Shown in pieces: positions 1-16,902 of a DNA stretch of 64,000 nt; the first letter of the stretch is position 1; the number at the start of each line of letters is the position of its first letter. Source of the DNA: Hyphomicrobium denitrificans 1NES1. GTDB lineage: Bacteria > Pseudomonadota > Alphaproteobacteria > Rhizobiales > Hyphomicrobiaceae. Made by a program: the position numbers and the translations under genes. The DNA is taken from positions 992,001-1,056,000 of the forward strand of contig NC_021172.1 of assembly GCF_000230975.2 (NCBI RefSeq), read 5' to 3'. Under the pieces are notes generated by a model. It saw nothing but the letters and a program-made list of their open reading frames with translations. It was not told where the DNA came from and made no database searches.

Positions 1-122
1 GGGGTCTGAAGCACCTCGCGGATGCCCGCATCCTCGATCTCGGAAACCTCAAGGTCGACGGTCGGGCCGGCGACAGGGCTCGCGGATGCAGGATCGAAGC
101 TATGGATGAAGGTTCGGGTCAC
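1..122 (-). CDS. Partial unknown protein coupled to hipA
   Basis: An open frame on the minus strand begins with GTG at 122. This GTG overlaps the hipA stop codon in a GTGA arrangement, and the frame stays open to the left edge (about 40 residues). The visible N-terminus reads TRTFIHSFDPASASPVAGPT and continues acidic (VDLEVSEIEDAG). The four-base overlap is typical of translational coupling, so this is probably a third gene of the hipBA operon. I do not recognise the family and the gene is cut by the window. There is no ATG in the visible part, so GTG is the only convincing start. Confidence 0.5.
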   Translation of the reverse strand, partial: MTRTFIHSFDPASASPVAGPTVDLEVSEIEDAGIREVLQT

Positions 123-1366
123 AGCGCCAGCGCCCGCTTGAGGTCGTCGTGCTCAAAGGCGCTGGCCATGCGGGTGATCTCGGCGGGGCGGGCGCCGGCC
201 TCCTTCGCGGTCTCCCGCCAGGTCGCTGTCACGACCGCGACTTCCTTGATGACGCCGCGAGCCGCTGCGAGGCCGAGGCCGAAGTATTCCGAGGCGGCCT
301 CGAGGAGGTCTATCGAGCAGGTGCCTTCGTCGAGATCGATGTTCGTTGTCAGTACGCGAGCCTTGAGGTCGGTCGGCACGGGGTTGAGATCGTAGATGGG
401 GGAAAGCGTCCAACCCGCCTTGCCGAGCAACAGGAAGCCATGGTTGCGGAGATGATCGTCGACGTTCGAGATCAGCACGTTGAAGGCGACGCGACGATAG
501 AGCGCCTGGGCATCGGTCTTTGCTTGCGCTCCGTGCTGTGTCAGCGCATCGACGATCTCGGGATAGCTGCCGCGCTCGCCGTCCTTCGATCCCGTCATCG
601 CCATTGCGGAGAGGAAGGGGATGCGAATGGCGCCGGTCCTGTCGAAGCGCCGAGACAGGAGCACCGCCTTTCCGCCGACCCGCAGCAATTCGTGGGAGGG
701 TGTGGCGATGCCGGCGCGCCCCGCGAGGCGTAAAGCAATCTCCTCCCAGGTCTCCAAGCTGTAGTCGTCGGTTTCCTTGGGGAACTTCGCGATGGAGAGG
801 TGGCCGTGCTGATCGACGATCGACGCCTTGGGGCGTGAACCTCCAAGTGATGATCCGGGCGCGAAGATGAGTTGGAGATCCTCATCCGTCTCCTCGTCGC
901 GAAGGACGCGTTCCGTCACGGCGAGGAGACGCCCGAGCTCGATCAGGGCGGGCACGCCCGCATGAAGCGGCGCTTGGAACACGTCATCGCCCGCCCAGCG
1001 GAATCGGAGCGCGCCAAGGCGGGTCTCATCGGCGACGCCAAGAAGATAGTCGCTTTCGGCGAGAGTCCGGATCGCGCGGCCTTCGCGCTCGGCGAGGCGC
1101 CGCTCGGCACGCTGCATGAGGCGGCGCCCCCAGGTGTCCGGCGCCGAGTCGCCGATGGACCCGAAGATGGCCTGTCCAGGCGGCGGCGCAAAGCCACCGC
1201 GCGTCAGTGCGAGAGCGGGCTCGATCGAGAAGCGATCCGGATCGGCGAGCCATTCCGGCGCGTACTCGAAGACGACGGTCTCGTTGCCCCGCACCTTGTT
1301 ACTGCGGGCCAATCCGACCGGACGTGTGCGCCCTTCAAGGTCGATATGGACTTCGATGTCAGCCAT
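119..1366 (-). CDS. hipA: HipA-family serine/threonine kinase toxin
   Basis: This is a 415-residue HipA-family kinase, the toxin of a type II toxin-antitoxin pair. Family members phosphorylate a cellular target (aminoacyl-tRNA synthetases such as GltX in the best-known case) and stop growth; the target here is unknown. Visible motifs are an N-terminal couple_hipA region (VHIDLEGRTRPVGLA), the P-loop-like GSSLGGSRPK near residues 171-180 whose serine is the autophosphorylation region in HipA, the catalytic NVDDHLRNHG near 301-310, and the metal-binding YDLNP near 325-329. The ATG at 1366 was chosen over a longer frame because it gives the canonical MADIEVHID start. It overlaps the hipB stop by 8 bases. 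All key residues look intact. Confidence 0.9.
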   Translation of the reverse strand: MADIEVHIDLEGRTRPVGLARSNKVRGNETVVFEYAPEWLADPDRFSIEPALALTRGGFAPPPGQAIFGSIGDSAPDTWGRRLMQRAERRLAEREGRAIRTLAESDYLLGVADETRLGALRFRWAGDDVFQAPLHAGVPALIELGRLLAVTERVLRDEETDEDLQLIFAPGSSLGGSRPKASIVDQHGHLSIAKFPKETDDYSLETWEEIALRLAGRAGIATPSHELLRVGGKAVLLSRRFDRTGAIRIPFLSAMAMTGSKDGERGSYPEIVDALTQHGAQAKTDAQALYRRVAFNVLISNVDDHLRNHGFLLLGKAGWTLSPIYDLNPVPTDLKARVLTTNIDLDEGTCSIDLLEAASEYFGLGLAAARGVIKEVAVVTATWRETAKEAGARPAEITRMASAFEHDDLKRALAL

Positions 1367-1694
1367 GATCGGTCGGCGTCGATGTGCGCCTGAGGCGGAC
1401 GCGTTTCGGCAACTCAGCGCTGGCCAGGGCCTGGCCGACGCTGTCGCGCGCGATGTCGGCGATCTCGGCCAAGCCATCGAGCAGTCCAAGCGCGTGCAGG
1501 ACGGCGGCATAGATGCCGATGCTGACATTGGCGTCGCCCGCTTCCACCCTTTGCAGGGTCGAGCGGGACGTGAAAGCGCGCTCAGCCACGACCGCCATGG
1601 GCAGCCGCCGCCGACGACGGGCGTCGTGGATATCCGCGCCCAGCTTCCGCAGTACGCGCCGCACAGCGGCAGGGGGATGGTGCGGTGTCGGCAT
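1359..1694 (-). CDS. hipB: HipB-like XRE antitoxin and repressor
   Basis: This 111-residue protein has a helix-turn-helix of the XRE/HipB type at about residues 18-75 (LGADIHDARRRRRLPMAVVA, then FTSRSTLQRVEAGDANVSIG). By family it neutralises HipA and represses its own promoter. It lies directly upstream of hipA with an 8-base overlap, as expected for an antitoxin-first pair. The start ATG is preceded on the minus strand by a GAAG-type ribosome-binding site and an AT-rich TAATAT box about 20 bases upstream that could be its -10. The basic C-terminal tail (RVRLRRTSTPTDHG) is not part of the HTH. Confidence 0.85.
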   Translation of the reverse strand: MPTPHHPPAAVRRVLRKLGADIHDARRRRRLPMAVVAERAFTSRSTLQRVEAGDANVSIGIYAAVLHALGLLDGLAEIADIARDSVGQALASAELPKRVRLRRTSTPTDHG

Positions 1695-1824: not shown

Positions 1825-2070
1825 ATGCCTGGCAAGGACGTCGGACTTCGAATCAGAGTGGAACGCGAGTTGCGCGACCAGTTTCTTGAGGTCTGCCGGC
1901 TCCAGGACAGACCTGCGGCTCAGGTTATTCGCGAGTTCATGCGAGCATATGTGGCAGACCGCGTAGCGCCTGATGCGGCAGCCGCCGCCGGACAAAGGCA
2001 AATGCACTCGCACGTTAAGGGGGGATCTGTTGTCAAAAAAGGCGACCGTCGTACGCGTTTCGACCCGTGA
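1825..2070 (+). CDS. Small ribbon-helix-helix DNA-binding protein
   Basis: This 81-residue protein has an N-terminal ribbon-helix-helix pattern: a beta strand (VGLRIRVERELRDQFLEVCR) followed by two helices (LQDRPAAQVIREFMRAYVADR), as in CopG/Arc-type repressors and antitoxins. The C-terminal 35 residues are low complexity and basic. No toxin gene partners it, and its last 41 bases overlap the start of druA in another frame, so translation of the two is probably coupled. A palindromic candidate operator lies directly upstream. I infer a local repressor of the defence operon. It could instead be an orphan antitoxin, or an antitoxin whose toxin is one of the operon proteins. Confidence 0.7.
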   Translation: MPGKDVGLRIRVERELRDQFLEVCRLQDRPAAQVIREFMRAYVADRVAPDAAAAAGQRQMHSHVKGGSVVKKGDRRTRFDP

Positions 2071-3232
2071 AGCTGGCCTCAAGAGGCGATTGCGGCGACA
2101 TCTAACCTCACTCGGGTTCCAGAGAACTGACGAAGGGGATCTTGCTCCGCCCGGCACCGGCAAGGAAGCGATTCGGACCGTCCACGGAGTTCAACGCGAG
2201 GATCGGCTGGCAGCTAACAAGCAATTTCTGTCTGACCAATTCCTCAAGCTGGCAAAGCATTTTGCCTCCGGCAACGAGGTTGATCCGCAGAAAATCTCGC
2301 CTGCGTTGGAGCGTATAGAAACTGGCACATGGCAAGGCGATCTCTTTCGCCTAGCGGCGCTCACGTGGTCAGTTCCGGTCTCAAACGGGTTCGGCCGTCG
2401 CCTCCGATATCTGGTCTGGGACGAGAACAACAACAAGCTCATGGGCATCATCGCGATTGGCGATCCGGTGTTTAATCTGCACGTGCGCGATAGCCTTATC
2501 GACTGGACCGTCAAAGATCGGAGCAAGCGCCTCGTCAATATAATGGACGCATACGTGCTTGGCGCGCTTCCCCCTTACAACATGCTTCTCGGGGGCAAGC
2601 TCGTCGCGTGCCTCCTGCGCACGAGGGATATCTACAATGATTTCGCAAAAGCGTATGGCGGCACGAAGGGCATCATTTCCAAACAGGAAAAGAAGGCTCG
2701 GCTGCTCGCGATCACAACATCTTCCTCAATGGGGCGGTCCTCCGTCTATAACCGCTTGAAACTCGGCGGCGTCGAATATTTCAAATCAATCGGTTATACG
2801 GGCGGATGGGGACATTTTCATATTCCTGACAGCTTGTTCTTGGACCTCCGCGATTATTTGCGTCACATCGATCATTCCTATGCGGACTGCAATCGCTTCG
2901 GGCAAGGTCCGAACTGGCGCCTTCGCACTACGAGGGCAGCTCTCGCGGCCTTGGGCTTCAAGGAAGACATGCTGCGGCATGGCATACAGCGCGAAGTCTT
3001 CTTCTGCCAACTCGCAAGCAACGCCGCGAAGTTGCTGCATTCCGGTGAGGGGCGGCCGAATCTAACCTCGCTTCTCACAGCCGAAGAGGTATCGAAGCTC
3101 GCTGTTGAGCGCTGGATCGTGCCGCGCGCGTTGCGGCGCCCCGAGTTCAAGGAGTGGGAGGCGGAAAACATCGCCGTCTTGCTGGGCGATCAGCGCGGCA
3201 AGCTTCTAGCGAAGCTGGCGCGCACGGGGTGA
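2030..3232 (+). CDS. druA: Druantia anti-phage protein DruA (DUF4338)
   Basis: This 400-residue protein carries the conserved core of the DruA/DUF4338 family: RYLVWDENNNKLMGIIAIGD near residue 124, RDSLIDWTVKDR, MDAYVLGALPPYNMLLGGKL near 171, and ITTSSSMGRSSVYNRLKLGG near 230. DruA is the first gene of Druantia type I systems; its biochemical role is not established. The start is taken as TTG at 2030 because AAGGGGGGA lies 4-6 bases upstream. An in-frame ATG at 1973 lacks this and would lie deep inside the upstream gene. The stop is 33 bases before the next start. Operon position and neighbours (a DruE-type helicase 4 kb downstream) support the Druantia call. Confidence 0.85.
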   Translation: MSKKATVVRVSTREAGLKRRLRRHLTSLGFQRTDEGDLAPPGTGKEAIRTVHGVQREDRLAANKQFLSDQFLKLAKHFASGNEVDPQKISPALERIETGTWQGDLFRLAALTWSVPVSNGFGRRLRYLVWDENNNKLMGIIAIGDPVFNLHVRDSLIDWTVKDRSKRLVNIMDAYVLGALPPYNMLLGGKLVACLLRTRDIYNDFAKAYGGTKGIISKQEKKARLLAITTSSSMGRSSVYNRLKLGGVEYFKSIGYTGGWGHFHIPDSLFLDLRDYLRHIDHSYADCNRFGQGPNWRLRTTRAALAALGFKEDMLRHGIQREVFFCQLASNAAKLLHSGEGRPNLTSLLTAEEVSKLAVERWIVPRALRRPEFKEWEAENIAVLLGDQRGKLLAKLARTG

Positions 3233-3265
3233 ACCAATGTGCGCCTCGACAATAGGATAGCCGCC

Positions 3266-6139
3266 ATGCCCGTGCCTCTCGAACAATGGCAAGCGCGCCT
3301 GGAGAGGCACTTCGAGTCGCTGGCGCGCAAACGGTCGTCGTCGGGCTTTCCAATTTTTGCCCTGGAGCACGGCTTGGATCAGGGCGAGTTGGACGAGATC
3401 GCTTCCCAACTCCGCTCGCGGCTCAGGGCCGGCCTTCAACTTGCTCCGCATTGGCTTCTTTGGGTCATCTACGCGACCGAGCGCGGTTACACTTACACGG
3501 GCGACGAGTACTGGCAGTCATTTGAAGAGAGCACCCCGGCCTGGGAGTTTTCCGACCGGGACAGGATCAAGCCCTGGTTCAGGAAGTTTCAGAAGGCCTA
3601 TAACGGCGTCGAGCCGTCCGGACCGTGGGCCGAACACAGGCGAATCATAGCCTGGCCCATCACGCACGCGGTTCTTCCACGTTACCTCCAGCGAGAATTC
3701 GCCCGCGCGCTCTATGATCTTCGTTTTCGTCTCGCGACGATGTCCAGTCTTGAACCGGCGCGCATTGGACGGCTGCTCGCGGCCAACGCATACGCGACGA
3801 CGCGCTTTCAGGAGTTTCTTCAGCAGGAGGAATTGACGGGCCGCATCGTACTGGCGCTTCTCGGCGCGCCGTCGGGCGATGAAGGCCGTGAGCCCATATA
3901 TCGCAAGACGCTCGATCGGATCGTCGCAGACCTCGAAAAGATACGAAGCGCGCGCGGATGGTTGAAGGAAACCCAGCGCGTCGTATCCGATCGTTTCAAG
4001 GGAATCGGCCACGGCGTCGCGCCGGTCCAGAGGCCGGCTGACGTTCGAGCAAGACCCGCCGAGCAGCTTCCCCATCCTGAAGTCCGGCCCAGCCTGCTGC
4101 TTCGCTACAGCGGCGACAGCATCTGGTCCGTCGTCATTGACATGCCTGATTTCAGAGGTGTTGCTGCGCTCAACGCCGAAGTGGCATCGTTCCTGCGGCG
4201 CACGCGTTGCCGTCTAAACGGCGCGCCGGACAGAAAGCCCGCTGGCTGGCTTCTGTCCGGAAGCCGTAAATCCGTCGTAAAAACATGGCCCGATCAGGCA
4301 AAGCCGCTTCTCGAATTCGAGCGACCGAATGCGTATCTGACGCACCTGCTGGAATCGGAATGCCGGCTCGGCGCCGGCCCCGTGTGGCTTTTCCGCATTG
4401 GGGCGGATGGCACCGCCCTTGAGATTGCCGGGCACGTCGTCCGGCCCGACTGCGACTATGTTGTCGTCACCGCCGGTGATCTTCCCGAACGACACGCCTT
4501 CATGAGCGCATGCACCATCGATTGCTCCGGGGTGAAGGCGTTCAAGCTCGCTATTCCCGCCGCTGTCGGCGCCGAGGACACGCGCTGGCTGCACAAACTC
4601 GGTTTGCAGATTGCCCGGACGATCCGCGTCTGGCCTGCCGGCATGCCAGGCCGCAACTGGGACGGCGAAGGCCGCAGCGAATGGCTGACGACAGAGCAGC
4701 CGTGCCTCGCGCTCATGCACGATCATCCGGTCGAAGCCTATGCGCTCAGCATCGACAGGGACGGGGAACAGATCATCAAGGCCGGCAATCCCGGCATGCC
4801 CATCTACCTGAAACTGCCCGCACTCCCCGTCGGCACGCACCTGCTGACGGTGAGGGCGCGCAGAAGCGGAGCCCTGGAGGGAATCGCGTCCGCGCCCCCG
4901 GAAGGTCACCTGCAACTCAGCGTCCGCGAACCCGAACCCTGGATTCCTGGTGTTCTGTCGCACGCGGGCATGCTCGTAAGACTCGATCCGCCGGAGGCCA
5001 GCCTAGATATGTTCTGGCAAAATAAGGTCGCGCTGTCGGTGCTCGGGCCGCAAGGTCACTCGGTGTATTTCGTTCTGCATCTCGAAAGCAGGGACGGCAG
5101 CGAAATCCTCTCTGAAAACATTGGCGCTCCAATGGAGTTGCCGGTCACCCCGGACGCTTGGAGCAAACAATTCGGCCAGTTTGTGAAGCGCGAAAAGGTC
5201 GCGTGGAGCCTGCTCGAAGCCGCCGCCGGCCGGCTTGTGATAAATGGCGAGACGCTCGGTGAAACGTCTTTTCGTTTTGAGCATGATGTGCCGCCTCTGC
5301 GCTGGGTGCTGCGCAACGAGCACGGCAATATCGTTCTCCGGCTTGTAGACGAAACCGGTCACGAAGACGAAGGGCCGGAAGCCAGTTATTGCGATATGCA
5401 GCGACCGCTCAGGCGTGAACCATTCACACCGGAAGCCTGTCGCGCCGGTCTGACCGTGCAGCGCCCCGGCGGACTGTTTTTCGCCCGGCGGGGGCAGCAC
5501 AGCGACATGGTTGTTGTGAGCACCGGCTTGACGGCCGGCGGATTTCAGGGGCTGGGAGTCAGCCCAGTATGCGATGACATCGGAACTACGGCTCTGACGC
5601 TGGCAGAGTCATGCCGCATTCTTGCGCTGTGGCGTAAGGCGCGGCTGGCGGGTTTCCTCGCTGACAGCCGGTGTCAGCAGGTGCGGAACAGCATCGTCCT
5701 AGCGATCTTCGAGCGCATTTGCGGTTCGACTTGGGCATCCGCCGAATCCGATTACCGCCGAAATCCGGGTTCGGCAAATGCCAACGACAATCTCAAGCGT
5801 TGCGTTGTCGATGGTCGAACTCCCGGCTTTGCTATTGTCCTGCATCGTGACCATGGAACGATGAACGGGAATTTCGGGCAGGCATCGGCTTGGTACGCTG
5901 AACTCTCGCGTCGCTACAAAGTCTGCACCGATCCTGGTCTTTGCACATTCGCGCTCAAATTCGCGAGCGCGCCCGACCGCATAGAAGATGGCTACAGCGC
6001 AAATCTTGACCACATGCTTGGTCAGCTTGCCGCTGCGCCTGCGATCCTCCGCGGCGCTCGACTATTGGCGACGCTGTGTGCGCAAGAGCAAGGTCAGTCG
6101 ATTGCCGACACGTCGCTACTTCCGAGGTGGCGATGGTAA
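3266..6139 (+). CDS. Large unknown protein in the DruB/DruC position
   Basis: This 957-residue protein has no motif I can assign. The first 260 residues are helix-rich with many conserved-looking aromatics (WLLWVIYATERGYTYTGDEY, WPITHAVLPRYL). From about 273 (LLLRYSGDSIWSVVIDMPDF) to 700 the pattern is alternating beta-like with repeated short strands. The C-terminal 200 residues are helical with several cysteines. No signal peptide or membrane segment is visible. In canonical type I Druantia three genes (druB, druC, druD) lie between druA and druE. Here only this gene and the next do, so it may be a druB-druC fusion or an unrelated replacement. ATG 3266 is preferred over GTG 3239 because AGGA lies 8-10 bases before it. 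It overlaps the next gene by 7 bases. Confidence 0.75.
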   Translation: MPVPLEQWQARLERHFESLARKRSSSGFPIFALEHGLDQGELDEIASQLRSRLRAGLQLAPHWLLWVIYATERGYTYTGDEYWQSFEESTPAWEFSDRDRIKPWFRKFQKAYNGVEPSGPWAEHRRIIAWPITHAVLPRYLQREFARALYDLRFRLATMSSLEPARIGRLLAANAYATTRFQEFLQQEELTGRIVLALLGAPSGDEGREPIYRKTLDRIVADLEKIRSARGWLKETQRVVSDRFKGIGHGVAPVQRPADVRARPAEQLPHPEVRPSLLLRYSGDSIWSVVIDMPDFRGVAALNAEVASFLRRTRCRLNGAPDRKPAGWLLSGSRKSVVKTWPDQAKPLLEFERPNAYLTHLLESECRLGAGPVWLFRIGADGTALEIAGHVVRPDCDYVVVTAGDLPERHAFMSACTIDCSGVKAFKLAIPAAVGAEDTRWLHKLGLQIARTIRVWPAGMPGRNWDGEGRSEWLTTEQPCLALMHDHPVEAYALSIDRDGEQIIKAGNPGMPIYLKLPALPVGTHLLTVRARRSGALEGIASAPPEGHLQLSVREPEPWIPGVLSHAGMLVRLDPPEASLDMFWQNKVALSVLGPQGHSVYFVLHLESRDGSEILSENIGAPMELPVTPDAWSKQFGQFVKREKVAWSLLEAAAGRLVINGETLGETSFRFEHDVPPLRWVLRNEHGNIVLRLVDETGHEDEGPEASYCDMQRPLRREPFTPEACRAGLTVQRPGGLFFARRGQHSDMVVVSTGLTAGGFQGLGVSPVCDDIGTTALTLAESCRILALWRKARLAGFLADSRCQQVRNSIVLAIFERICGSTWASAESDYRRNPGSANANDNLKRCVVDGRTPGFAIVLHRDHGTMNGNFGQASAWYAELSRRYKVCTDPGLCTFALKFASAPDRIEDGYSANLDHMLGQLAAAPAILRGARLLATLCAQEQGQSIADTSLLPRWRW

Positions 6140-7245
6140 TCACCGAGCTCCGACCGGATGACGTCCTCGCCGATTGCCGCCGAGCGCTGCATCTGGCGGC
6201 GGCTGCGGGCACGCTCATCGACGATGGCCTGCTGGCCGCGCTGTTAAGGCGCAGCGCGGGCATGCGTTGTCCCTGTTCGCGAGCGGCGTTGCGGGCTTCC
6301 CTTGTTGAAAGCCTTCAGGGCCTGTCTCAGGACGTCGGACAGCTTGCGGATCGTATCGACGAAATTATCGATGCTCTCATCGTCGCGGGCGATCTGCTCG
6401 AACTCAGCGATGTCGTCACCGACGATCCAGGAGCGAAGGGCACCTGGGTTTACGCGGCTCCGCCGGGCTTCGTCGCGCGTTCGAGCGGCAGCATCTTCCT
6501 CATCGGCGTCGTTCCCGACCAGGACACGTTCCTGCCGGAAGGGCTCGCTTCCCGTGTCACCCATGAAGGCTTCACGCGGCTGATCGCGCAGCAACCGGGG
6601 GAAGACCTGCCTGCCGAATTGCGCGAACAGGGCCTTCAGGAGCTGTCGGAGCATGTTTGGCTGAAGTGCCCTAAGATGGAGTCGGCGCAGGAAATGCTGG
6701 CCGCGCTGGAATACCGGCTGGCGTCGCAGCCGCCGAGTGGCGCTATCGGCGACTTGCAGATTCTCGACTCCGCTCAGCCTGTCACTTACTACCGCGGAAG
6801 GTGGACGGCTCCGAAACGCCAGAGCGGCAATTTCGTCGCCCGCCGCCCCCAGGAATTCGGGGCTTCCCTTTGGTGCTTCGTCACGCTGCAAGACGGGGTT
6901 CCGGCAAGGCTCCTGGATTTTCCACTGAAGAAGTCGCGCTGGCGCGGCTGCGATGCGGCATGGCACGTTCAGATGGCACTCGATCGCCGATTTGGTCACC
7001 CGCAGCTCTACCGGCGGCGCGCCGCCAACGACGGAGTCCGACTGGATTTCTTTTCACCGCTGCCGCTCTGGGCGGAAAGGCGGCTGATAATATTCGGGGG
7101 GCCCGTGGCTCCCGAGAAGTGCCTGATGTCCTATTGGCTTCCGTCGAGCGAAGCGAAGGTCGAAGAGCGCTTTCTGCAGGACCGACTCTGGCTTTCGGCC
7201 GCGGACGGCGCAAGTGAAGGGGGTTCGCGTGCAAACAATCCTTGA
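6133..7245 (+). CDS. Unknown protein in the DruD position
   Basis: This 370-residue protein of unrecognised family starts at an ATG that overlaps the upstream stop (ATGGTAA), behind a GAGGTGG ribosome-binding site. The N-terminal third is helical (DVLADCRRALHLAAAAGTLI, then SLQGLSQDVGQLADRIDEII). The last 160 residues are rich in Trp and Arg (YYRGRWTAPKRQSGNFVARR, LKKSRWRGCDAAWHVQMALD), which would suit a nucleic-acid or protein-contact surface. No transmembrane or catalytic motif is evident. Its place just before the DruE-type helicase, overlapping its start, matches DruD of type I Druantia by position only; homology would have to be shown by profile search. Confidence 0.75.
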   Translation: MVITELRPDDVLADCRRALHLAAAAGTLIDDGLLAALLRRSAGMRCPCSRAALRASLVESLQGLSQDVGQLADRIDEIIDALIVAGDLLELSDVVTDDPGAKGTWVYAAPPGFVARSSGSIFLIGVVPDQDTFLPEGLASRVTHEGFTRLIAQQPGEDLPAELREQGLQELSEHVWLKCPKMESAQEMLAALEYRLASQPPSGAIGDLQILDSAQPVTYYRGRWTAPKRQSGNFVARRPQEFGASLWCFVTLQDGVPARLLDFPLKKSRWRGCDAAWHVQMALDRRFGHPQLYRRRAANDGVRLDFFSPLPLWAERRLIIFGGPVAPEKCLMSYWLPSSEAKVEERFLQDRLWLSAADGASEGGSRANNP

Positions 7246-10200
7246 AACGATCGAGAACCTTCACGGGTCGCTGCGCGATTACATCGAGGCGACATACCAT
7301 ATCAGCGCGCGCTCGCTGATCGAGCGGCGCAAGGAATTGCTGGATTGTCCTGGCGTCATTCATCAGGTGCCCTATCTGGAATCGACGCCGCGGTATCAGA
7401 CCGGCGAAAAGTTCGCGGACATGAAAGGGCTGCCACCAGCGGCCCTGCAAGTCTATTCATTGCTCACGAAGGCGGACGGAGACCTTCCGCGGCTCATCTA
7501 CGATCCACCCTACAAGCACCAGTCAGAGTCGATCCGCGGCTGCCTCATCGACGGCAAAAACCTCGTTGTCATGACGGGCACCGGCTCGGGCAAAACCGAA
7601 TCCTTCCTGCTGCCGATTCTCGGCAAGCTTGCACGCGAGGCCAACGCAAAACCGGCATCCTTCAGGGACAATCCGGCGATGCGTGCGCTGATCCTCTACC
7701 CGATGAACGCGCTCGTGAACGACCAGTTGGGGCGGCTGCGCTCCCTGTTCGGCGATCCGCGCCTGGTTAAGCTGTTCAAGTCATGGGCCGGGAGGCCGCC
7801 CCGCTTCGCCCGTTACACGAGCCGAACGCCCTATGCCGGCATCCGCACCACCAAGAAAGATTCCGTCAAGCTCAAGTCATTCGGTGAGTTCTACGCAGAC
7901 ATCGAACGCCGTGCGGGCGGCGAGGAGTCGGACGACCAGAAGGAGGCGAAGCGCCTTCTCGCCGCGCTAAAGGAGCGCGGCAAGTGGCCGGCCAAGCCGT
8001 ACCTTACCGCGTGGTTCGGGGAGAAGAATTCCGGATGGGCCGACCGGAAGACCGGAGAATTCGTTCGCGCCGTCACCCTACCGGACGACTCCGAGTTGCT
8101 TACGCGGCACGAAGTGCAGGCCGCGCCGCCCGATCTACTCGTCACTAACTATTCGATGCTCGAATACATGCTCATGCGTCCGATCGAACGGACCATCTTC
8201 GACAGGACGCGCGAATGGCTCGAAAAGAATCCGATCGAAAAATTTCTTGTCGTTCTCGACGAAGCCCACCTTTACAGAGGAGCTGCCGGCGCGGAAGTCG
8301 GCCTGCTTCTGCGGCGGCTGCGCGACAGGCTGGGCGCGTCTTCCGAGCGCTTCCAAGTGATCTGCGCGACGGCGAGCTTTAAGGATCATGAGTACGCGCC
8401 AGAATTCGGCGCGCAGATTTCGGGTCTGCCGCCCGAAACATTCATCCCGATCAGGGGCTCGCTCGATCTACGCTCGCACAGCGCCACCGGGTCGAACCAT
8501 GACGCGGAGGTCCTTGCCTCGATCGACCTGAAAACATTTTACGACGCAGTGGAGGATGTCGGCCGTCTCGCTGCCATCAAACCTCTTCTGGAGTATCGGC
8601 ATGTCAGCGGCAGCCACACCGCCGAGGCCGCGCTTTATCACGCGCTATCCGAGTTCGGCCCTATGGGTCTGCTGGTCAACGCGACGATGCAGCAGGCGCT
8701 CCCCGTCGCTGAACTCGGTCGCGACTTGTTTCCCACCTCGCCGCCAGCAACTGCCGACACCGCCGTCACGGCGCTGATGGCGTTCGGCAGCGTTGCGAGG
8801 CTCGATCCGAAAACGCCAGGTCTGCTTCCGTGCCGCGTTCATAACTTCTTCCGGGGCCTGCCAGGCCTTTGGGTTTGCATGGATCCCAATTGCAGCGAGA
8901 TCGCGGAAGAGGACAGAGACGGGATTTGCGGCAAGATGTACAGCCAGCCACTGGAGCGTTGCGAATGCGGCGCTCGTGTTCTGGAGCTGTATACGTGCCG
9001 GAACTGCGGCACAGCCCACGCGCGGGCCTACACCGACGACGTTGACGCGCCTTCAGCGCTCTGGTCGAAGCCCGGCCGGGCGCTCCGCATGGCCGCCGGC
9101 GCCACGACGCCGCTGCTGCCCCTGGATCTTCTGCTTGAGGAGCCCGCCATCGAGGACGTGGCGGAGCCGGCCGATTACGATCTCGAGACGGGGCGGCTTA
9201 ATCCGCCCAATCTTGGGTCGCGCACCCGCACTGTCTATGTCCGCAGCGATCGTGTCTGCGAAGCGGTGGACGAGGACGACGACGCAACGGCCGGATTTGA
9301 GGCGCGCGGGCAGTTTGTGCCTTGCGCCGTCTGCGGTAAGACCGCTCGATTCGGGCGCAGCTATGTTCAGGATCACCAGACGAAGGGTGATCAGCCATTT
9401 CAGGCGCTCGTCGCGCGCCAGCTTCAGATTCAGCCGCCAGCACCCGTGCCGCCGACGCGCTTTGCGCCGCTGCAAGGACGCAAGGTTCTGGCGTTCTCGG
9501 ACTCCCGCCAGGTGGCGGCCCGTCTCGCCCCGAATTTGCAAATGTATTCCGTCCGCGATTCCCTGCGTCCGCTCATCAGTTGGGGCTATCGCCGTCTCTT
9601 GGGCGTTCCTGTACTTCGATCGAACCTCAATCTGGAGGATCTCTATCTCGCCGTGCTGCTTGCTTCAAAGGAACTGAATGTGCGGCTGCGCCCGGAAATG
9701 AAGCCGGGCGAGAGCTTCGGAGCCGAAGGGATTGTCGAACGCGCTGTTCGCGCCAAGGAGACCGAAGACGATGCGGGGCTTTTGAATCTCTGCATGGAAC
9801 TGCGCAACGAACGGCCCCCCGAAGCCCTGCTCGACAATATCATAACCACAATTCAGGACCGCTTTCGCGGTTTTGAAGCGCTTGCGCTCGCGTCGATCGT
9901 CGAACGCAGCAAGCATACAACTGCCTTGCAGCAACTGCCTTCGATACCAGGTTTTGCCGAAACGCCCGAAGCCAAGGTGGGCCTCGCGCGCGCATGGCTG
10001 CGATGCTGGCAGGGGCACGGTTTCTGGCTGAGCGCCATGCCGCCGGTCTGGTGGCGGCGGCCCCGTTCCGAGGGCACCAGCATCCGTGGCCAAAAGGGCA
10101 AGTTCAACGCGATGACTCGCATAATCAATGACAAGGCGGCTCTCAAGATTTTCTGGGATAAATGGTCGCCCGCGCTGCTTGCTCTTTTCACGCAGGACTC

Positions 10201-12769
10201 GGACAGTGGCTTCAAGCGTCTCAGGGGCAGCGAGCTTTCACTGCTCTTCGATGGCGCATGGGTTCATTGCGATAGCTGCAAATCCGTCCACCGTCCGGTG
10301 CCGGGACTCTCGCATTGCCTCGACTGCGGCAGCAGTCAAGTCAAAGCACTCGACCCCGATACCGATCCGGTCTTTTTGGCGCGCAACGGTTTCTACCGAA
10401 AGCCCGCCATCGAGGCCCAGAACGGGCGCCAGCCTATGGCGCTGATTGCCGCCGAGCACACAGCGCAATTGAACGCGCCGCAAAACGAAGATGTGTTCTC
10501 CAAGGCGGAGGAGAACGAACTGCTGTTTCAGGATATCGCCCTGGCGGGGCGCAACAGCAACGAGGCTGCTATTGACGTTCTGTCCAGCACGACCACGATG
10601 GAAGTCGGAATCGACATCGGCGCTCTGTCCGGCGTGGCCCTGCGCAACATGCCGCCAGGCCGCGCCAATTATCAGCAGCGGTCGGGCCGCGCCGGGCGCC
10701 GCGGCAATGCGGTTGCAACCGTCGTTGCCTTCGGCAGCGCCGACAGCCACGACGAACACTATTTCTCCGAGCCGGACGGCATGATCCGCGGCGATGTTGT
10801 CGATCCGAAGCTCACGCTCGATAATGCCGAGATCGTACGGCGTCACATTCGTGCGTTCCTGCTTCAGAACTACCATCAGGACCGGCTGCCGCAGGTCGAT
10901 CCCAACCAGCGGCACGACCTGTTCTCCGTGCTCGGCACGGTCGCCGAATTCCGCCGTAACACCTCCATCCTGAACCGCGACGATTTCGCGTCCTGGCTTA
11001 AGGAACACGACGAACAGCTTCAGAAGCGGGTGTCCTCATGGATACCCACGGAGCTGAAGCCGGAGGATCGCAAGGAGTTGCTGGAAGGCGTGGTGGCCGA
11101 CTGCCTGAAGGCGGTTGATGACGCGATACGCCCCGGACCCGGTGAGACGAACGAGGCTACGGAGGCGGATGACGACGACGATGAGTCAGAAGACGCGGCC
11201 GAAGAAGGCGAGGAGCGCCCGCGGCAGACCTCGCGCCCGGGAAAGCTGCTGGACCGCCTGCTTTATTGCGGCAAGCTGCCCCGGTACGCCTTCCCGACCG
11301 ATGTAGCGACCTTCCATGTCTTTGACCGGGACCGTTCGTCGCGTTTCCGTCCGATCATGCGCTTTGCGCCGTCGCAGGGCTTGCCGATCGCGCTGACGCA
11401 GTACGCGCCGGGAAAGCAGGTCTGGATTTCCGGCAAGTGCTACACCTCCGGCGCGATTTACTCGGTTATGTCGGACGACCGTTTCACGGCATGGGAGTCA
11501 AAGCGCATTTACATGGAATGCAGTGAGTGCGGCTTCGCGAAGACCTTTCCCATCGGAGAGGCGAACCGCAACGAGGTGCGCGACTGCGAAGCGTGCGGGG
11601 GCGAAGACACTTTCGGCCCCGGCCGCTACTGGCTGCGTCCGCCTGGCTTCGCCCATCCGGTCGATGCCGAGGAAGTCACCTCGCCGGATGACATGCCGGA
11701 AACGAGCTACGCCACGCGCGCGAAGCTTACGATGGGAACGCCGGACGAGGGTGCCGGCTGGCTTCCAGTCAATGACCGCATCCGTGTTCTGCCGGCGCGC
11801 GACCACCTGCTTGTGTCGAACACCGGACCGAACCACGACGGCTATACATATTGCGTCAAATGCGGTCGCATCGAGTCAGCAACGGATCCCGGGCCGAAGC
11901 TGCTCGGGCCGCACCGCAAACCCTTCCCGGACGATGATGACAAGCAAATGTGCGACGGCACGAGCCCGACACGTCACGTCGTCCTCGGGACGGATTTCAT
12001 AACTGACATCGCCCTGTTCTCGATGCGGGTTGCCGCCCCTCTGAAGCTCAAGCCCGGCCACTCATCGACCGCTGTTGCGCTGAGGACGGTCAGCGAGGCC
12101 CTGGCGAAAGCAGCGTGCCAGTTGCTTGAAATTGAATCGGGCGAACTCATGGCTGAATTCCGCCCCGCGCTTACGCCGGGGGGAACGAGCGGTCTTGAGG
12201 CCGAGATATTCCTCTACGATACGCTGCCGGGCGGCGCCGGCTTCTCGAGCCAGCTTTCCGCTAGGGGCGTAGAGCTGTTTCAACGCGCTCTCTACCTGAT
12301 GAAAACATGCGCTGCCAATTGTGATGCGTCCTGCTACCGCTGCCTGAGAAGTTTCAAGAACAAGTTCGAGCACGGCCTGCTAGACCGCCACGTCGGTGCC
12401 CAATTGCTTGAATACCTTCTCAATGGCGAGCAGCCGCAATTCAACGCCGACCGCCTCAGGACCTCGACCGAATTTTTATTCAACGATCTACTGCGGCAAG
12501 GCGTCGGCGGCGTTCAGCTCGAGTTGAATGCGCCGTTCGCCACACCGGCGGGCGCGTTGACCGCTCCCATCATGGCGACCACAGCCGCGGGGCAGTACAT
12601 CATCGCTCTTTCCGGCCCCTTGACCACGGATCACCCGGCAGACTCCGAGATTGCGAGGTTCCGTGATAACGGGGGCAGCATTCCCGTGATTGTCGAGAAC
12701 GAGCTGATCGTCCGAGGCAACCTGCCATGGGCCACGCGGAGCGTGCTGCAAAAGATCGGTGGCCTGTGA
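7229..12769 (+). CDS. druE: DruE-type SF2 helicase with DUF1998 domain
   Basis: This giant protein (1846 residues) is a superfamily 2 helicase. It has Walker A TGTGSGKTESF near residue 115, DEAH box VVLDEAHLYRG near 343, an MEVGIDIG motif and motif VI QQRSGRAGRRG near 1148. A DUF1998-type four-cysteine motif (CAANCDASCYRC, near 1692) lies close to the C-terminus. Several other CxxC pairs (CMDPNC, CRNCGTAH, CDSC/CLDC) suggest more zinc or iron-sulphur sites. A run of acidic residues lies near 1310-1335. The size and architecture match DruE, the hallmark of Druantia. GTG 7229 is preferred because GAAGGGGG lies just upstream; GTG 7214 is possible. It overlaps the previous gene by 17 bases and all helicase motifs look intact. 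Confidence 0.88.
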   Translation: MQTILETIENLHGSLRDYIEATYHISARSLIERRKELLDCPGVIHQVPYLESTPRYQTGEKFADMKGLPPAALQVYSLLTKADGDLPRLIYDPPYKHQSESIRGCLIDGKNLVVMTGTGSGKTESFLLPILGKLAREANAKPASFRDNPAMRALILYPMNALVNDQLGRLRSLFGDPRLVKLFKSWAGRPPRFARYTSRTPYAGIRTTKKDSVKLKSFGEFYADIERRAGGEESDDQKEAKRLLAALKERGKWPAKPYLTAWFGEKNSGWADRKTGEFVRAVTLPDDSELLTRHEVQAAPPDLLVTNYSMLEYMLMRPIERTIFDRTREWLEKNPIEKFLVVLDEAHLYRGAAGAEVGLLLRRLRDRLGASSERFQVICATASFKDHEYAPEFGAQISGLPPETFIPIRGSLDLRSHSATGSNHDAEVLASIDLKTFYDAVEDVGRLAAIKPLLEYRHVSGSHTAEAALYHALSEFGPMGLLVNATMQQALPVAELGRDLFPTSPPATADTAVTALMAFGSVARLDPKTPGLLPCRVHNFFRGLPGLWVCMDPNCSEIAEEDRDGICGKMYSQPLERCECGARVLELYTCRNCGTAHARAYTDDVDAPSALWSKPGRALRMAAGATTPLLPLDLLLEEPAIEDVAEPADYDLETGRLNPPNLGSRTRTVYVRSDRVCEAVDEDDDATAGFEARGQFVPCAVCGKTARFGRSYVQDHQTKGDQPFQALVARQLQIQPPAPVPPTRFAPLQGRKVLAFSDSRQVAARLAPNLQMYSVRDSLRPLISWGYRRLLGVPVLRSNLNLEDLYLAVLLASKELNVRLRPEMKPGESFGAEGIVERAVRAKETEDDAGLLNLCMELRNERPPEALLDNIITTIQDRFRGFEALALASIVERSKHTTALQQLPSIPGFAETPEAKVGLARAWLRCWQGHGFWLSAMPPVWWRRPRSEGTSIRGQKGKFNAMTRIINDKAALKIFWDKWSPALLALFTQDSDSGFKRLRGSELSLLFDGAWVHCDSCKSVHRPVPGLSHCLDCGSSQVKALDPDTDPVFLARNGFYRKPAIEAQNGRQPMALIAAEHTAQLNAPQNEDVFSKAEENELLFQDIALAGRNSNEAAIDVLSSTTTMEVGIDIGALSGVALRNMPPGRANYQQRSGRAGRRGNAVATVVAFGSADSHDEHYFSEPDGMIRGDVVDPKLTLDNAEIVRRHIRAFLLQNYHQDRLPQVDPNQRHDLFSVLGTVAEFRRNTSILNRDDFASWLKEHDEQLQKRVSSWIPTELKPEDRKELLEGVVADCLKAVDDAIRPGPGETNEATEADDDDDESEDAAEEGEERPRQTSRPGKLLDRLLYCGKLPRYAFPTDVATFHVFDRDRSSRFRPIMRFAPSQGLPIALTQYAPGKQVWISGKCYTSGAIYSVMSDDRFTAWESKRIYMECSECGFAKTFPIGEANRNEVRDCEACGGEDTFGPGRYWLRPPGFAHPVDAEEVTSPDDMPETSYATRAKLTMGTPDEGAGWLPVNDRIRVLPARDHLLVSNTGPNHDGYTYCVKCGRIESATDPGPKLLGPHRKPFPDDDDKQMCDGTSPTRHVVLGTDFITDIALFSMRVAAPLKLKPGHSSTAVALRTVSEALAKAACQLLEIESGELMAEFRPALTPGGTSGLEAEIFLYDTLPGGAGFSSQLSARGVELFQRALYLMKTCAANCDASCYRCLRSFKNKFEHGLLDRHVGAQLLEYLLNGEQPQFNADRLRTSTEFLFNDLLRQGVGGVQLELNAPFATPAGALTAPIMATTAAGQYIIALSGPLTTDHPADSEIARFRDNGGSIPVIVENELIVRGNLPWATRSVLQKIGGL

Positions 12770-12797
12770 CGAGATTGGCAGCCGCGGAAGGTCCGCC

Positions 12798-14774
12798 ATG
12801 ATCGAACTGCTTGGCGTAAAAGAAGGCAAGGAATTCGAAGCGGCCCAGCACCTGCGCCGCCAAATTCTGGCAGCATGGCCTGACATCGGCCAAAGCACAA
12901 AGGACCACATCAAGATATTCGTGGGGCTGAAGCTTTACGGCTACCGTCTCGAAGACATCGATCTCGTCGTCATCGGCCACCTTTCCGAGCCTCGCCCGTT
13001 CGACGTCGAGTTCAAGTTCTTTCCGCGCGACGGGGAGCCGTTCGTTCCCCGGAGCGCTCAGGTCAAGAATTTCATCCTCGTTGTCGAAGCGAAGTCGCAT
13101 GACGCGACTGGCGTGCGCTTCGAGGACAAGATCGCTTCCGTCTGCTACCGCCGGGGAGGACATACCGTCTGGGAGTCGGTGACGGAGAAAAACCGACTTC
13201 AGATGTTCGAGTTCAAACGCTACCTCGCTGATCATGGTATCGAGCGCATCTACGTGCAGGACCTGATCTTCTTCTCCGGCCTGCGGGAAGGAGACCTGCC
13301 GCACCGTCCCCACAATTGCTTCGGCGTGGATGCAAGTTTCGAGCGCATCCTCAATGTTCTCGGACAGATTTCTGCTCCGCTTCACCACAAGCGGGACGCT
13401 CTTATCTCATTCGGATCAGATCAAACCTTCGCTGCGCTGCGCGATCCCGCTTTTCCTCTTCTGCAATCGATCGAACCGACGCCGTTGGACCGCCGGCGGA
13501 TGGATCGGATCATCAAGGCTTCGCTGCCCGAAGCGTGGCTCGACGACCTGGGCAACAAGCAGGTCGTCATCCGGGGGCGCGGCGGCGTCGGCAAGACGGT
13601 CATATTGCTGCAAATGGCCTATCGCGCGTTCGACCGCGCGCGCCTGCGTTCGCTCATGCTCACCTACAACAAAGCGTTGGTCGCCGACATGCGGCGCACG
13701 ATGGCGCTGCTCGGCGTGCCTCGCAGCATCGAAAATGGCGGAATCAGCATTGATACGGTCCATGCCTTCATAGGGCGGCTTATGCACGGGCTCGGCATCA
13801 TTCAGGACTATGCAGGCTTCCTTGAAGCATACGAGCAGAAGAAGGATCTTCTGCTGGAGTACCTGCGGAGCCAAACCGTGTCGGCGGGGGATATCGCCGA
13901 ACTCCTCAAACGCCATCCCACCGACTTTCTGTGGGATACCGTGTTTGTCGACGAGGGGCAGGACTGGCCTGCCAACGAAATCGAAATTCTGCGCGCGGTC
14001 TACGGACCCGAACGCATCGTCGTGGCTGACGGCGTTGACCAGTTCATTCGTGGGTCCGTTGCCGACTGGAGCCGCGGCATCACGCGCGAGCAATTGCGCG
14101 CGCGGCGGCTTACGCGGTGCTTGCGCATGAAAGCCAATCTGGCGCTGTTCGTGGCAGATTTTGCCGCCGCGCTCGGGCTTGCAGATTGGGACCTGGAGCC
14201 GAATCCTGACGCGAACGGCGGCCGAGTTATGGTCATTGAAGGCGATCTTGCGGCCCGTCCGGAGGTCTATTCAAAGCTTTGCGCGGAAGCGGCCGAGCTC
14301 GGAAACTATCCGATCGATCTGCTCGCATGCGTTCCGCCTGCGCTCGTGGTCTATGATGGGCGCGAGCCGTTTTCGACGCCGGCGCGTGTTCTCGCCGGGC
14401 AGGGCGTGAAAACCTGGGACGCTTCGTCTATCGATGTGCGGGAGAATTTCCCGACGGACCGCGAGGCGCTTCGCATCGTTCAGTACGATTCTTGCCGTGG
14501 GCTGGAAGGCTGGACGGTCATCAACTACGGCTTTGACGAATTCTGGGATTACAAGTACCGGCAGCGGCTGGCACTGCCGCGAGGAACAGATGATCTCTTC
14601 GTAACAGCCGAGGAGGAGGCGACCGAGTTTGCGTCGCGTTGGGCAATGATTCCGTTGACCCGCGCAATGGATACCCTCGTCATCAACATTTCCGACAAGC
14701 CTGGTCGCGTCAGGGAAGCGCTTGAAGCGCTGCGCGAGAAGCGCGCCGACTTCTTGGAATGGGTCAAACTATGA
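12798..14774 (+). CDS. NERD-like nuclease fused to UvrD-type SF1 helicase
   Basis: This 658-residue, probably bifunctional protein has an N-terminal NERD/restriction-endonuclease-like domain at about 1-130: GKEFEAAQHL gives the helix Glu, IDLVVIG the Asp near 54, and ILVVEAKS the ExK near 96-98. An SF1 helicase follows, with Walker A RGRGGVGKTVI near 258, Walker B/motif II VFVDEGQDW near 381, a motif IV-like RCLRMKANLALFV, QYDSCRGLEGW near 561 and PLTRAMDTLVI (motif VI) near 618. The nuclease and ATPase residues both look intact. ATG 12798 is used because GGAAGG lies 7 bases before it. The gene is 28 bases after druE and on the same strand, so it is probably part of the defence operon, although it is not a canonical Druantia component. 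Confidence 0.85.
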   Translation: MIELLGVKEGKEFEAAQHLRRQILAAWPDIGQSTKDHIKIFVGLKLYGYRLEDIDLVVIGHLSEPRPFDVEFKFFPRDGEPFVPRSAQVKNFILVVEAKSHDATGVRFEDKIASVCYRRGGHTVWESVTEKNRLQMFEFKRYLADHGIERIYVQDLIFFSGLREGDLPHRPHNCFGVDASFERILNVLGQISAPLHHKRDALISFGSDQTFAALRDPAFPLLQSIEPTPLDRRRMDRIIKASLPEAWLDDLGNKQVVIRGRGGVGKTVILLQMAYRAFDRARLRSLMLTYNKALVADMRRTMALLGVPRSIENGGISIDTVHAFIGRLMHGLGIIQDYAGFLEAYEQKKDLLLEYLRSQTVSAGDIAELLKRHPTDFLWDTVFVDEGQDWPANEIEILRAVYGPERIVVADGVDQFIRGSVADWSRGITREQLRARRLTRCLRMKANLALFVADFAAALGLADWDLEPNPDANGGRVMVIEGDLAARPEVYSKLCAEAAELGNYPIDLLACVPPALVVYDGREPFSTPARVLAGQGVKTWDASSIDVRENFPTDREALRIVQYDSCRGLEGWTVINYGFDEFWDYKYRQRLALPRGTDDLFVTAEEEATEFASRWAMIPLTRAMDTLVINISDKPGRVREALEALREKRADFLEWVKL

Positions 14775-14800
14775 AGCGCAAGCAACAAAAAGAACTGTGA

Positions 14801-15577
14801 GTGCCAATGACTATGTCTGCTCTCCAGGAAACCCTGAAAGGTATAACGGATCCGCGGAAGAGGATGGAGTTCATAGATGATGCGTTCCGCCCACCGGAGC
14901 CTCAACTCCTCGACACCTGCGTTCTTCAAAACCTCGACTGGGTCGATCGCCAACTTGAGGAAAAGGAGCGGGTTGTATGGGACGACGCCGCACTACTCGA
15001 GCTTTCCGCACGGTATGGATCGGACACCGCAAACGATCTCGTCGACCTCGGAATCTTGTATAAGCAATTCGAATATTGGGGTGGCTATCCCTGGTTGGTT
15101 TGCGAGACGAATTGGTCTGAGGCGTCAGTCTTTGGCGGCAATAGAAGCGCAAGACTTCGGATCATTGTTAAGTTCTTTGGTGGACATCAAGAAGATGTCT
15201 CCAATGACGCTTTTCCAGGGGTAGCTCTCGGATTGCTCGGGGACAGTAGATCGGCCCGTATCTCTCCACTTATTTTGAAGGGGTTGGGAGTGAGGTCACT
15301 CGGGCAAATTTTTGCAAGCGACGGGCCTCTATCATTTCTTCGCGATGAAGGAGACAGGCGAGTTGCGGGCTATGCACTTGTGGCAAATATTCCGGCCATT
15401 CTTACTACTGACCGAAAGACATTTTGGAAGCACCGAGACGTATTGAGAAATTTCGGCGTTGAAGTAATGCGGCCGAGCGAGTTGCTCGATTTATACGAGC
15501 CCTATTGGGCCGCGCTTTCCAATGAATTTCAGCGTCGGCAGAACGAGAGCAGTCCTTCGTCTCCAGGCCGGCATTAA
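14801..15577 (+). CDS. PIN-domain protein, putative ribonuclease
   Basis: This protein of about 258 residues has the marks of a PIN-like nuclease: LLDTCVLQNLDW carries the first Asp, DDAALLELSARYG offers the next acidic residues, and the C-terminal AILTTDRKTFWKHRD carries the closing TxD motif. By family it would cut RNA in a metal-dependent way, but no substrate can be inferred. It starts 26 bases after the helicase, GTG at 14801 or ATG at 14807 or 14813; no clear ribosome-binding site separates them. A nine-codon reading frame (14771-14800, ATGA overlap with the helicase stop) fills the gap and may couple translation. Base composition is visibly more AT-rich than the upstream genes, so it may have a separate origin. 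Confidence 0.7.
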   Translation: MPMTMSALQETLKGITDPRKRMEFIDDAFRPPEPQLLDTCVLQNLDWVDRQLEEKERVVWDDAALLELSARYGSDTANDLVDLGILYKQFEYWGGYPWLVCETNWSEASVFGGNRSARLRIIVKFFGGHQEDVSNDAFPGVALGLLGDSRSARISPLILKGLGVRSLGQIFASDGPLSFLRDEGDRRVAGYALVANIPAILTTDRKTFWKHRDVLRNFGVEVMRPSELLDLYEPYWAALSNEFQRRQNESSPSSPGRH

Positions 15578-16230: not shown

Positions 16231-16902
16231 TCAGTGCTCGCTGGCAATGACTGCGGCGACGTCGGCGCCGGTTGCGTCGCGAGGCAGTGCGAAGAAGTCG
16301 GCGTTCTTTTCGAGAGCCCTTTCGAGTTGCGCCTGGAACGTCACGCGGTCCAGTTCGACAGTGCCGAACTGGCGGAGATGCTCTGTTACGAACTGCGTGT
16401 CGAGAAGCGTGAAGCCGCCGCGGATCAGCCGCGCGGCAAGGTGAACAAGCGCGATCTTCGATGCGTCGCGCTCGGTCGAGAACATGCTTTCGCCGAAGAA
16501 CGCGCTTTTGAGCGCTACGCCGTAAAGGCCGCCGACCATTTTATCGCCATTCCAGACTTCGACCGTATGGCAGGCGCCAAGATCGAACAGCTCGCGGTAG
16601 AGCACACGGATGCGCGTGTTGATCCAGGTCGACATGCGCCCCGCACGCGGCGCAGCGCAGCCGTCGATGACACCCTCGTAGTCGCTGTCGATCTTGACCT
16701 GAAATGGAGTCGTGCGGACTGTGCGCAGAAGACGCCGCGGAATATGGAAGCCGTCGAGCGGCAACACACCGCGCTGCTGCGGCTCGATCCAATAAAGCGC
16801 GGGATCGTCCGCGCTCTCCGCCATCGGGAAAATGCCACAGCTATAGGCTTTCAGGAGAACCTGCGGCGTAATCTCGAACATTGGATCGTCGCGCGACGCC
16901 AT
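16231..16902 (-). CDS. aat: Leucyl/phenylalanyl-tRNA-protein transferase
   Basis: Aat transfers Leu or Phe from charged tRNA to N-terminal Arg or Lys of proteins, creating N-end-rule degradation signals read by ClpS/ClpAP in the cytoplasm. The 223-residue protein has the family core: [15 protein letters not shown], a [20 protein letters not shown] block, [28 protein letters not shown] and [18 protein letters not shown] 16902 is used; ATG 16881 is also possible, and a TTG four bases after the accC stop would give a longer form. It is the last gene of the leftward aroQ-accB-accC-aat run and is followed by a terminator. Confidence 0.93.

Follow-up and report, generated by a model that had tools for sequence, protein, structure and literature searches.

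Type I Druantia is defined by five genes, DruABCDE (PMC13316683, PMC7251935), with DUF4338 as the DruA domain (PMC7251935), a domain that has also been called GNAT-like (PMC10853773). The DruE of this type is described as carrying an "inactivated Vsr", a nuclease domain that is predicted to be inactive (Bell et al., PMC12458937, section 8). In type III the role of sensor probably falls to DruH, with DruE as a helicase-nuclease, and subtype-specific partners are proposed to set activation (PMC13192584); another study attributes protection by type III to a block of DNA circularisation and not to cutting (PMC13316683). Separate nuclease genes are described for DISARM, Dpd, BRIGADE and MrfAB (PMC12458937), and in the main text of the same source NERD appears, outside a reference, for TALON only. 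A literature search, outside which most subscription papers and supplements lay, found neither a link between NERD, PIN or a downstream nuclease and type I Druantia nor a published account of how type I Druantia destroys phage DNA.

The window analysed here is a stretch of 64,000 nucleotides from Hyphomicrobium denitrificans 1NES1. Seven open reading frames lie on the same strand between positions 1825 and 15577, all of them present as the preliminary description had listed them (Table 1), and they are not chance frames, because their proteins have many database relatives. The junctions from the ribbon-helix-helix (RHH) gene to the nuclease-helicase gene measure, in gene order, −41, +33, −7, −17 and +28 bases, in agreement with the preliminary description, using the starts favoured by homologues, whereas the mechanical list of reading frames takes the longer starts. 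The gap between the nuclease-helicase and PIN genes is 26 bases from the GTG at 14801 or 38 from the ATG at 14813, and the latter is taken as the PIN start because it fits the 254 aa length of a database copy.

Table 1. Features of the Druantia-like operon and its right-hand edge (positions are those of the window; residues of the nuclease-helicase in P0006 numbering)
Feature	Position	Strand	Basis
RHH protein, 81 aa	1825..2070	+	Pfam RHH_9 24.7 bits (cut-off 23.4)
druA, short form	2030..3232 (TTG start; ORF open from 1973)	+	PADLOC DruA 695 bits; Pfam DruA 264 bits
X966, middle protein	3266..6139 (ATG start; 957 aa, or 966 aa from 3239)	+	no PADLOC, Pfam or NCBIfam profile match
druD	6133..7245 (ATG start; longer ORF start 6076)	+	PADLOC DruD (DruD1) 497 bits
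druE1	7229..12769 (GTG start; longer start 7214)	+	PADLOC DruE1 2067 bits; Pfam DEAD, Helicase_C, MZB
Nuclease-helicase (P0006), NERD-like PD-(D/E)xK + SF1 helicase	12798..14774 (ATG start; ORF open from 12759)	+	
Nuclease motif D66, D68 ... E110-x-K112 ... Q148	12954..13202	+	alignments
SF1 Walker A (residues 273-280) to Walker B DEGQD (398-402)	13575..13964	+	alignments
PIN-domain protein (P0007), 254 aa, facultative	14813..15577 (open from 14801)	+	
Right edge of non-conserved region	16246..16254	none	same-genus synteny begins here

Terminator-like sites in the operon number 6 over both strands, fewer than the 15.6 of shuffled sequence; those on the plus strand, three in all, fall inside genes (druD, X966 and PIN), and none was found on that strand between operon genes. 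Promoter-like sites are at chance level (3, against 4.1 in shuffles), and one such match (9/12), at 12775-12802, sits at the junction of druE and the nuclease-helicase gene, where a separate promoter for the latter is conceivable. It is possible that all seven genes act together, as had been proposed. Rightward from about 16246 the sequence is syntenic with all 4 of the same-genus genomes that were fetched (out of 6 located), but the 34 kb to the left find no match in the 15-17 kb retrieved from that flank of each of the four, which places the operon at the edge of a variable region. An island boundary defined by an integrase was rejected, since the nearest integrase gene found leftward lies about 83 kb beyond the window. 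A HipA-like gene is located to the left of the operon (119-1694, minus strand), with a possible HipB-like partner recognised by eye only. At the thresholds used, the genome has one match each for druE, the nuclease-helicase and the PIN gene.

The operon is a Druantia type I relative without DruB and DruC, with X966 in their place. As in DruABCDE, the DruA, DruD and DruE1 genes follow one another in that order, co-directional and with short gaps or overlaps; the window differs in that it has no DruB or DruC, but X966 instead, and in that a nuclease-helicase and a PIN gene stand behind druE. The earlier assignments, namely a type I relative with DruA, a giant DUF1998 helicase, a PIN fold, an RHH protein and two genes (X966 and druD) between druA and druE, are right by profile or fold, and DruE1 is an SF2 helicase of the YprA/DUF1998 kind. 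No match to DruF, which marks types II and IV, or to DruG, DruM or DruL occurs among those listed for the seven window proteins (for DruE, the best 25 of 33 families).

X966 has at least 1102 relatives at E ≤ 0.001, adjoins druD in other systems, and its gene is the middle one in an A-X-D-E arrangement that recurs. A DruB-DruC fusion was considered and rejected, as the hhalign probability is below 1% to both DruB and DruC of a Pseudomonas putida plasmid (L018), whose proteins served as a control and match the DruB1, DruC1, DruD1 and DruE1 models. By hhalign X966 has no similarity to DruF, and no relative of solved structure was found (best E 0.38). Two plasmids, L036 and L017, carry genes for proteins of about 960-1010 aa with partial similarity to X966 (27-28% identity; E as low as 4e-15 for L036 and 6e-11 for L017). 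These genes, at L036:26291-29329 and L017:26040-28922 (minus strand), lie beyond the DruA-DruE-NERD genes and run in the opposite direction to them. In L003, L005, L008, L010, L017, L022, L036 and L057 a long DruA (about 660-690 aa) has in front of it a gene for a GHKL-type ATPase, which in the loci scanned with PADLOC is MzaB-like; in the window DruA is short and lacks such a neighbour directly upstream.

The gene behind druE1 encodes an enzyme with a D ... ExK ... Q pattern, presumably the NERD catalytic pattern, in which D66/D68, E110, K112 and Q148 are invariant in two alignments (30/30 and 13/13). Its Walker A, DE..D Walker B, motif V and fold are those of SF1 helicases of the UvrD/Rep group, and the motor is UvrD/PcrA-like. 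The earlier label of a NERD-type nuclease joined to an SF1 helicase holds for the motifs and the motor; it does not hold by profile, for Pfam NERD (PF08378) has no match on P0006 and reaches at most 12.8-13.5 bits in relatives (cut-off 22.1). Assignment by this sub-threshold profile was dropped, and "NERD" is used here on the strength of the motifs. The AlphaFold model of the enzyme is weak (pLDDT 69, pTM 0.39).

The nuclease-helicase gene lies directly behind druE in eight DruE1 loci: the window, L002 (Hyphomonas), L012 (Sinorhizobium, disrupted), L019, L021, L022, L027 and L056. In relatives the two genes are separated by a few to tens of bases or overlap by 4 bases. Searches that started from the nuclease-helicase returned 11 distinct loci besides the window (L012, L013, L014, L019, L021, L045, which is the same as L022, L046-L049 and L056; L012 is one of three near-identical Sinorhizobium records and was counted once), and in 10 of the 11 it adjoins a Druantia core gene, druE or druF. 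It follows a DruE2-type helicase in L013, L014 and L047 and precedes a DruF-like gene in L046 and L048, the latter ending before any druE; the exception is L049, where a 30% identical relative adjoins type III restriction-like genes. DruE and the nuclease-helicase diverge together, with r 0.95 over six DruE1 loci (a fraction of 0.0036 of 5000 permutations was as high) and r 0.956 over ten loci (0 of 5000). Among the listed metagenome relatives of X966 (120) and of the nuclease-helicase (120) there are 16 coincidences of equal-sized contigs, against 0.3 expected. Both genes are rare, the nuclease-helicase being found in 2/385 genomes of the class and 2/150 relatives and DruE1 in 3/398 genomes of the phylum and 4/385 of the class, the window included in each case; two of the four DruE1 genomes in the class sample (G115 and G178) have no nuclease-helicase match, and the druE of G178 is cut off. 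The expectation that the gene stays next to druE in other genomes has been confirmed by the eight loci and the co-divergence, and the pair is not confined to the window. Judged from sequence, the nuclease-helicase is a true partner of the Druantia genes.

It might be argued instead that the enzyme is the product of a stand-alone defence gene, like Nhi and other NERD-helicases, which travels beside Druantia in defence islands and stays outside its mechanism. The context of L049, the shift in position from behind druE in type I to before druF in L046 and L048, and the lack of the gene in Nitrosococcus L016 beside a closely related DruE are what such a gene would lead one to expect, but the tight spacing or 4-base overlaps with druE, the core gene alongside in 10 of 11 loci and the co-divergence (r 0.95) are not, and this explanation is considered unlikely.

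Several of these loci have further features. L049:3-11956 carries a type III methyltransferase, restriction-like genes and a TmtA-like protein beside the distant relative. At L046:1163-9351, a type IV-like Druantia operon opens with three genes (528, 292 and 1245 aa) followed by the nuclease-helicase, and the 1245 aa protein has a weak SspC match. In the Sinorhizobium medicae plasmid (L012:12634-18353) an IS3-family element interrupts the operon, which is also rearranged inside druE, and the match to the nuclease-helicase breaks off at residue 457 of 671.

A survey of DruE1-type loci, with near-copies counted once and with L009, L010 and L035 left out as they end inside druE, shows a gene for a PD-(D/E)xK-type nuclease behind druE in 16 of 21 readable loci, or in 14 of 19 when the window is set aside together with L056, which was found only via the nuclease gene. 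The 16 comprise eight NERD-like SF1 enzymes, two Pfam-NERD/UvrD enzymes (Paracoccus L017, Pfam NERD 43 bits, and Leisingera L036) and six Cas4/DruK-like PDDEXK enzymes, five of them recognised by Pfam (L003, L006, L008, L052 and L053; E 6e-11 to 8e-20) and that of L005 by its 83% identity to the one in L003. The PADLOC model of DruK, a PD-(D/E)XK nuclease, matches the enzymes of L003 and L006 at 46 and 42 bits; in the window this place is taken by a NERD-like SF1 enzyme. Behind the nuclease gene of L017 and L036 comes a gene with weak similarity to DruD (E 0.0025 and 1.3e-5), which places the nuclease gene inside the operon, and this position between druE and a DruD-like gene speaks again against a stand-alone gene.

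No recognised nuclease occupies this place in 5 of the 21 loci (L004, L007, L016, L018 and L029), whose neighbours were tested with nuclease and PIN queries and, for L007, also with Pfam and PADLOC. These include the canonical DruABCDE of Pseudomonas putida (L018) and L016, whose DruE is 71% identical to that of the window; in L004 a transposase-like gene, recognised by eye, stands behind druE after a gap. Either such a gene is dispensable in some loci, or a different enzyme does the work there. In L007 a 331 aa protein is encoded behind druE (L007:15553-16548), with a 38% identical relative upstream of the Sinorhizobium Druantia genes (L012:735-1721); it was rejected as a PIN of the P0007 type, having no similarity to it and no Pfam match, and L007 was counted as without a recognised nuclease because the protein is PIN-like by eye only.

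The labels for the slot gene cluster on the DruE tree (7 changes over all groups, compared with 10.1 after shuffling; 1 of 200 shuffles came out as low), a tree of 19 rows without L052, L053, L056 and L012 in which near-copies favour such clustering. By eye, an alignment of 19 DruE proteins shows no D..(D/E)xK pattern in the C-terminal domain of DruE1, which agrees with the "inactivated Vsr" of Bell et al. A nuclease slot seems to exist behind druE1, from which the nuclease would be supplied in trans. A broader form of this idea, in which one of at least three distinct PD-(D/E)xK-type enzymes encoded directly behind DruE1 is recruited in trans by a helicase that has lost its nuclease, the NERD-like SF1 enzyme being an exchangeable killing module across type I-like and II/IV-like Druantia, stands at about even chances.

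The UvrD/PcrA family is known for repair, and with its UvrD/PcrA-like motor the enzyme might mainly repair or process host DNA, or limit self-damage by DruE as a safety or recycling factor, rather than kill phage DNA. The other nuclease types in the same slot fit a shared need for cutting better, and a host-DNA role is regarded as improbable.

The two genes at the ends of the operon are less firmly attached. P0007 has a VapC-like PIN fold in which D38, E107, D185 and D204 are invariant in an alignment (33/33); Pfam PIN has no match on it and reaches 14.6 bits (cut-off 23.6) in one of five database relatives scanned. The gene occurs twice in druE1 operons, in the window and in Allochromatium, where a 55% identical copy stands directly before druE and the contig ends. 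As a part of the operon, which it had been taken to be, the PIN protein keeps its fold and this one further DruE1 operon in its favour, but there the gene precedes druE, and it is absent from all six other DruE1 loci with sequence behind the nuclease-helicase. It occurs in 1/398 phylum-wide genomes, that of the window itself, and was not found in viral contigs or plasmids. Linkage by equal-sized contigs was dropped for the PIN gene, as the coincidences (1 and 1) do not exceed chance. Compared with VapC-type PIN toxins, the protein likewise has a PIN fold with four acidic residues, but it has 254 aa with extra helices and no recognised antitoxin beside it. The PIN protein is, from its conservation and distribution, evidently real but facultative.

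The RHH protein, which might be an autoregulator, did not hold up as a component: no relative was found near Druantia genes in 68 loci fetched, the one weak match (E 0.043) being in L012, roughly 13 kb outside its Druantia genes. A split toxin-antitoxin pair of RHH and PIN was set aside, as no RHH relative lies beside the other PIN genes examined. An AbiE-type toxin-antitoxin pair (AbiEii 98.9 bits; partner by eye) stands just before druA at L019:3556-5361.

There is a substantial chance, slightly under even, that the PIN gene, and with it the RHH gene, have hitch-hiked as a cassette at the operon edges, either toxin-antitoxin-like or inserted late, and are unrelated to Druantia. Their GC3 is lower (PIN 0.53 and RHH 0.585, against 0.68-0.74 for druA to the nuclease-helicase), which together with the six loci that lack the PIN gene, its chance-level contig coincidences and its presence in a genome (G782) without Druantia genes nearby and without X966 anywhere agrees with this explanation; the copy directly before druE in Allochromatium does not, although the gene is so rare.

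The reading preferred here, and held to be somewhat probable, is a Druantia type I variant (DruA-X966-DruD-DruE1) in which the DNA-cutting step is supplied in trans, a reading built on gene content, conservation, linkage, co-divergence and intact motifs. Conjectural in it are the sequence of steps, any contact with DruE, the choice of targets and the part played by the PIN protein. By analogy with type III, a layer of DruA, X966 and DruD would sense infection and activate the system. DruE1, with its degenerate C-terminal domain, would then open or remodel phage replication intermediates, and the nuclease-helicase would be loaded on the DruE product and cut it; in relatives, the other PD-(D/E)xK nucleases of the same slot would do the cutting. 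The PIN protein would be an optional add-on, probably an RNase co-effector. Counting against a nuclease supplied in trans are the chance-level promoter-like site, the sub-threshold Pfam NERD score and the weak AlphaFold model, as well as the five loci among 21 without a recognised nuclease in the slot, the context of L049 and the position before druF in L046 and L048; the circularisation block invoked for type III counts against cutting.

Among known systems, Druantia types II and IV (DruE and DruF with DruM/DruG or DruL) share the nuclease-helicase, relatives of which sit beside druE or druF in five loci of these types (L013, L014, L046, L047 and L048), although their DruE is only about 25% identical to that of the window. 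The enzyme differs from Gabija GajB, from other UvrD-like defence helicases and from the NERD-helicases of retrons and Nhi in being linked to Druantia core genes, and from the last of these also in its sub-threshold match to the NERD profile. If the preferred reading is correct, a nuclease that the following gene encodes and that lineages exchange would close the gap on how type I destroys phage DNA. It would also explain why profile-based annotation misses parts of such systems: in PADLOC-DB 2.0.0 neither X966 nor the PIN protein has a match, and that of the NERD-like enzyme is only weak. In DISARM, Dpd and MrfAB, as in the window, the nuclease is encoded by a separate gene beside that of a YprA/DUF1998 helicase (PMC12458937, section 8), although the nucleases belong to other families (PLD, 3'-5' exonuclease) and the partners differ; Druantia would then be tied to DISARM and Dpd as a helicase with a separate nuclease gene.
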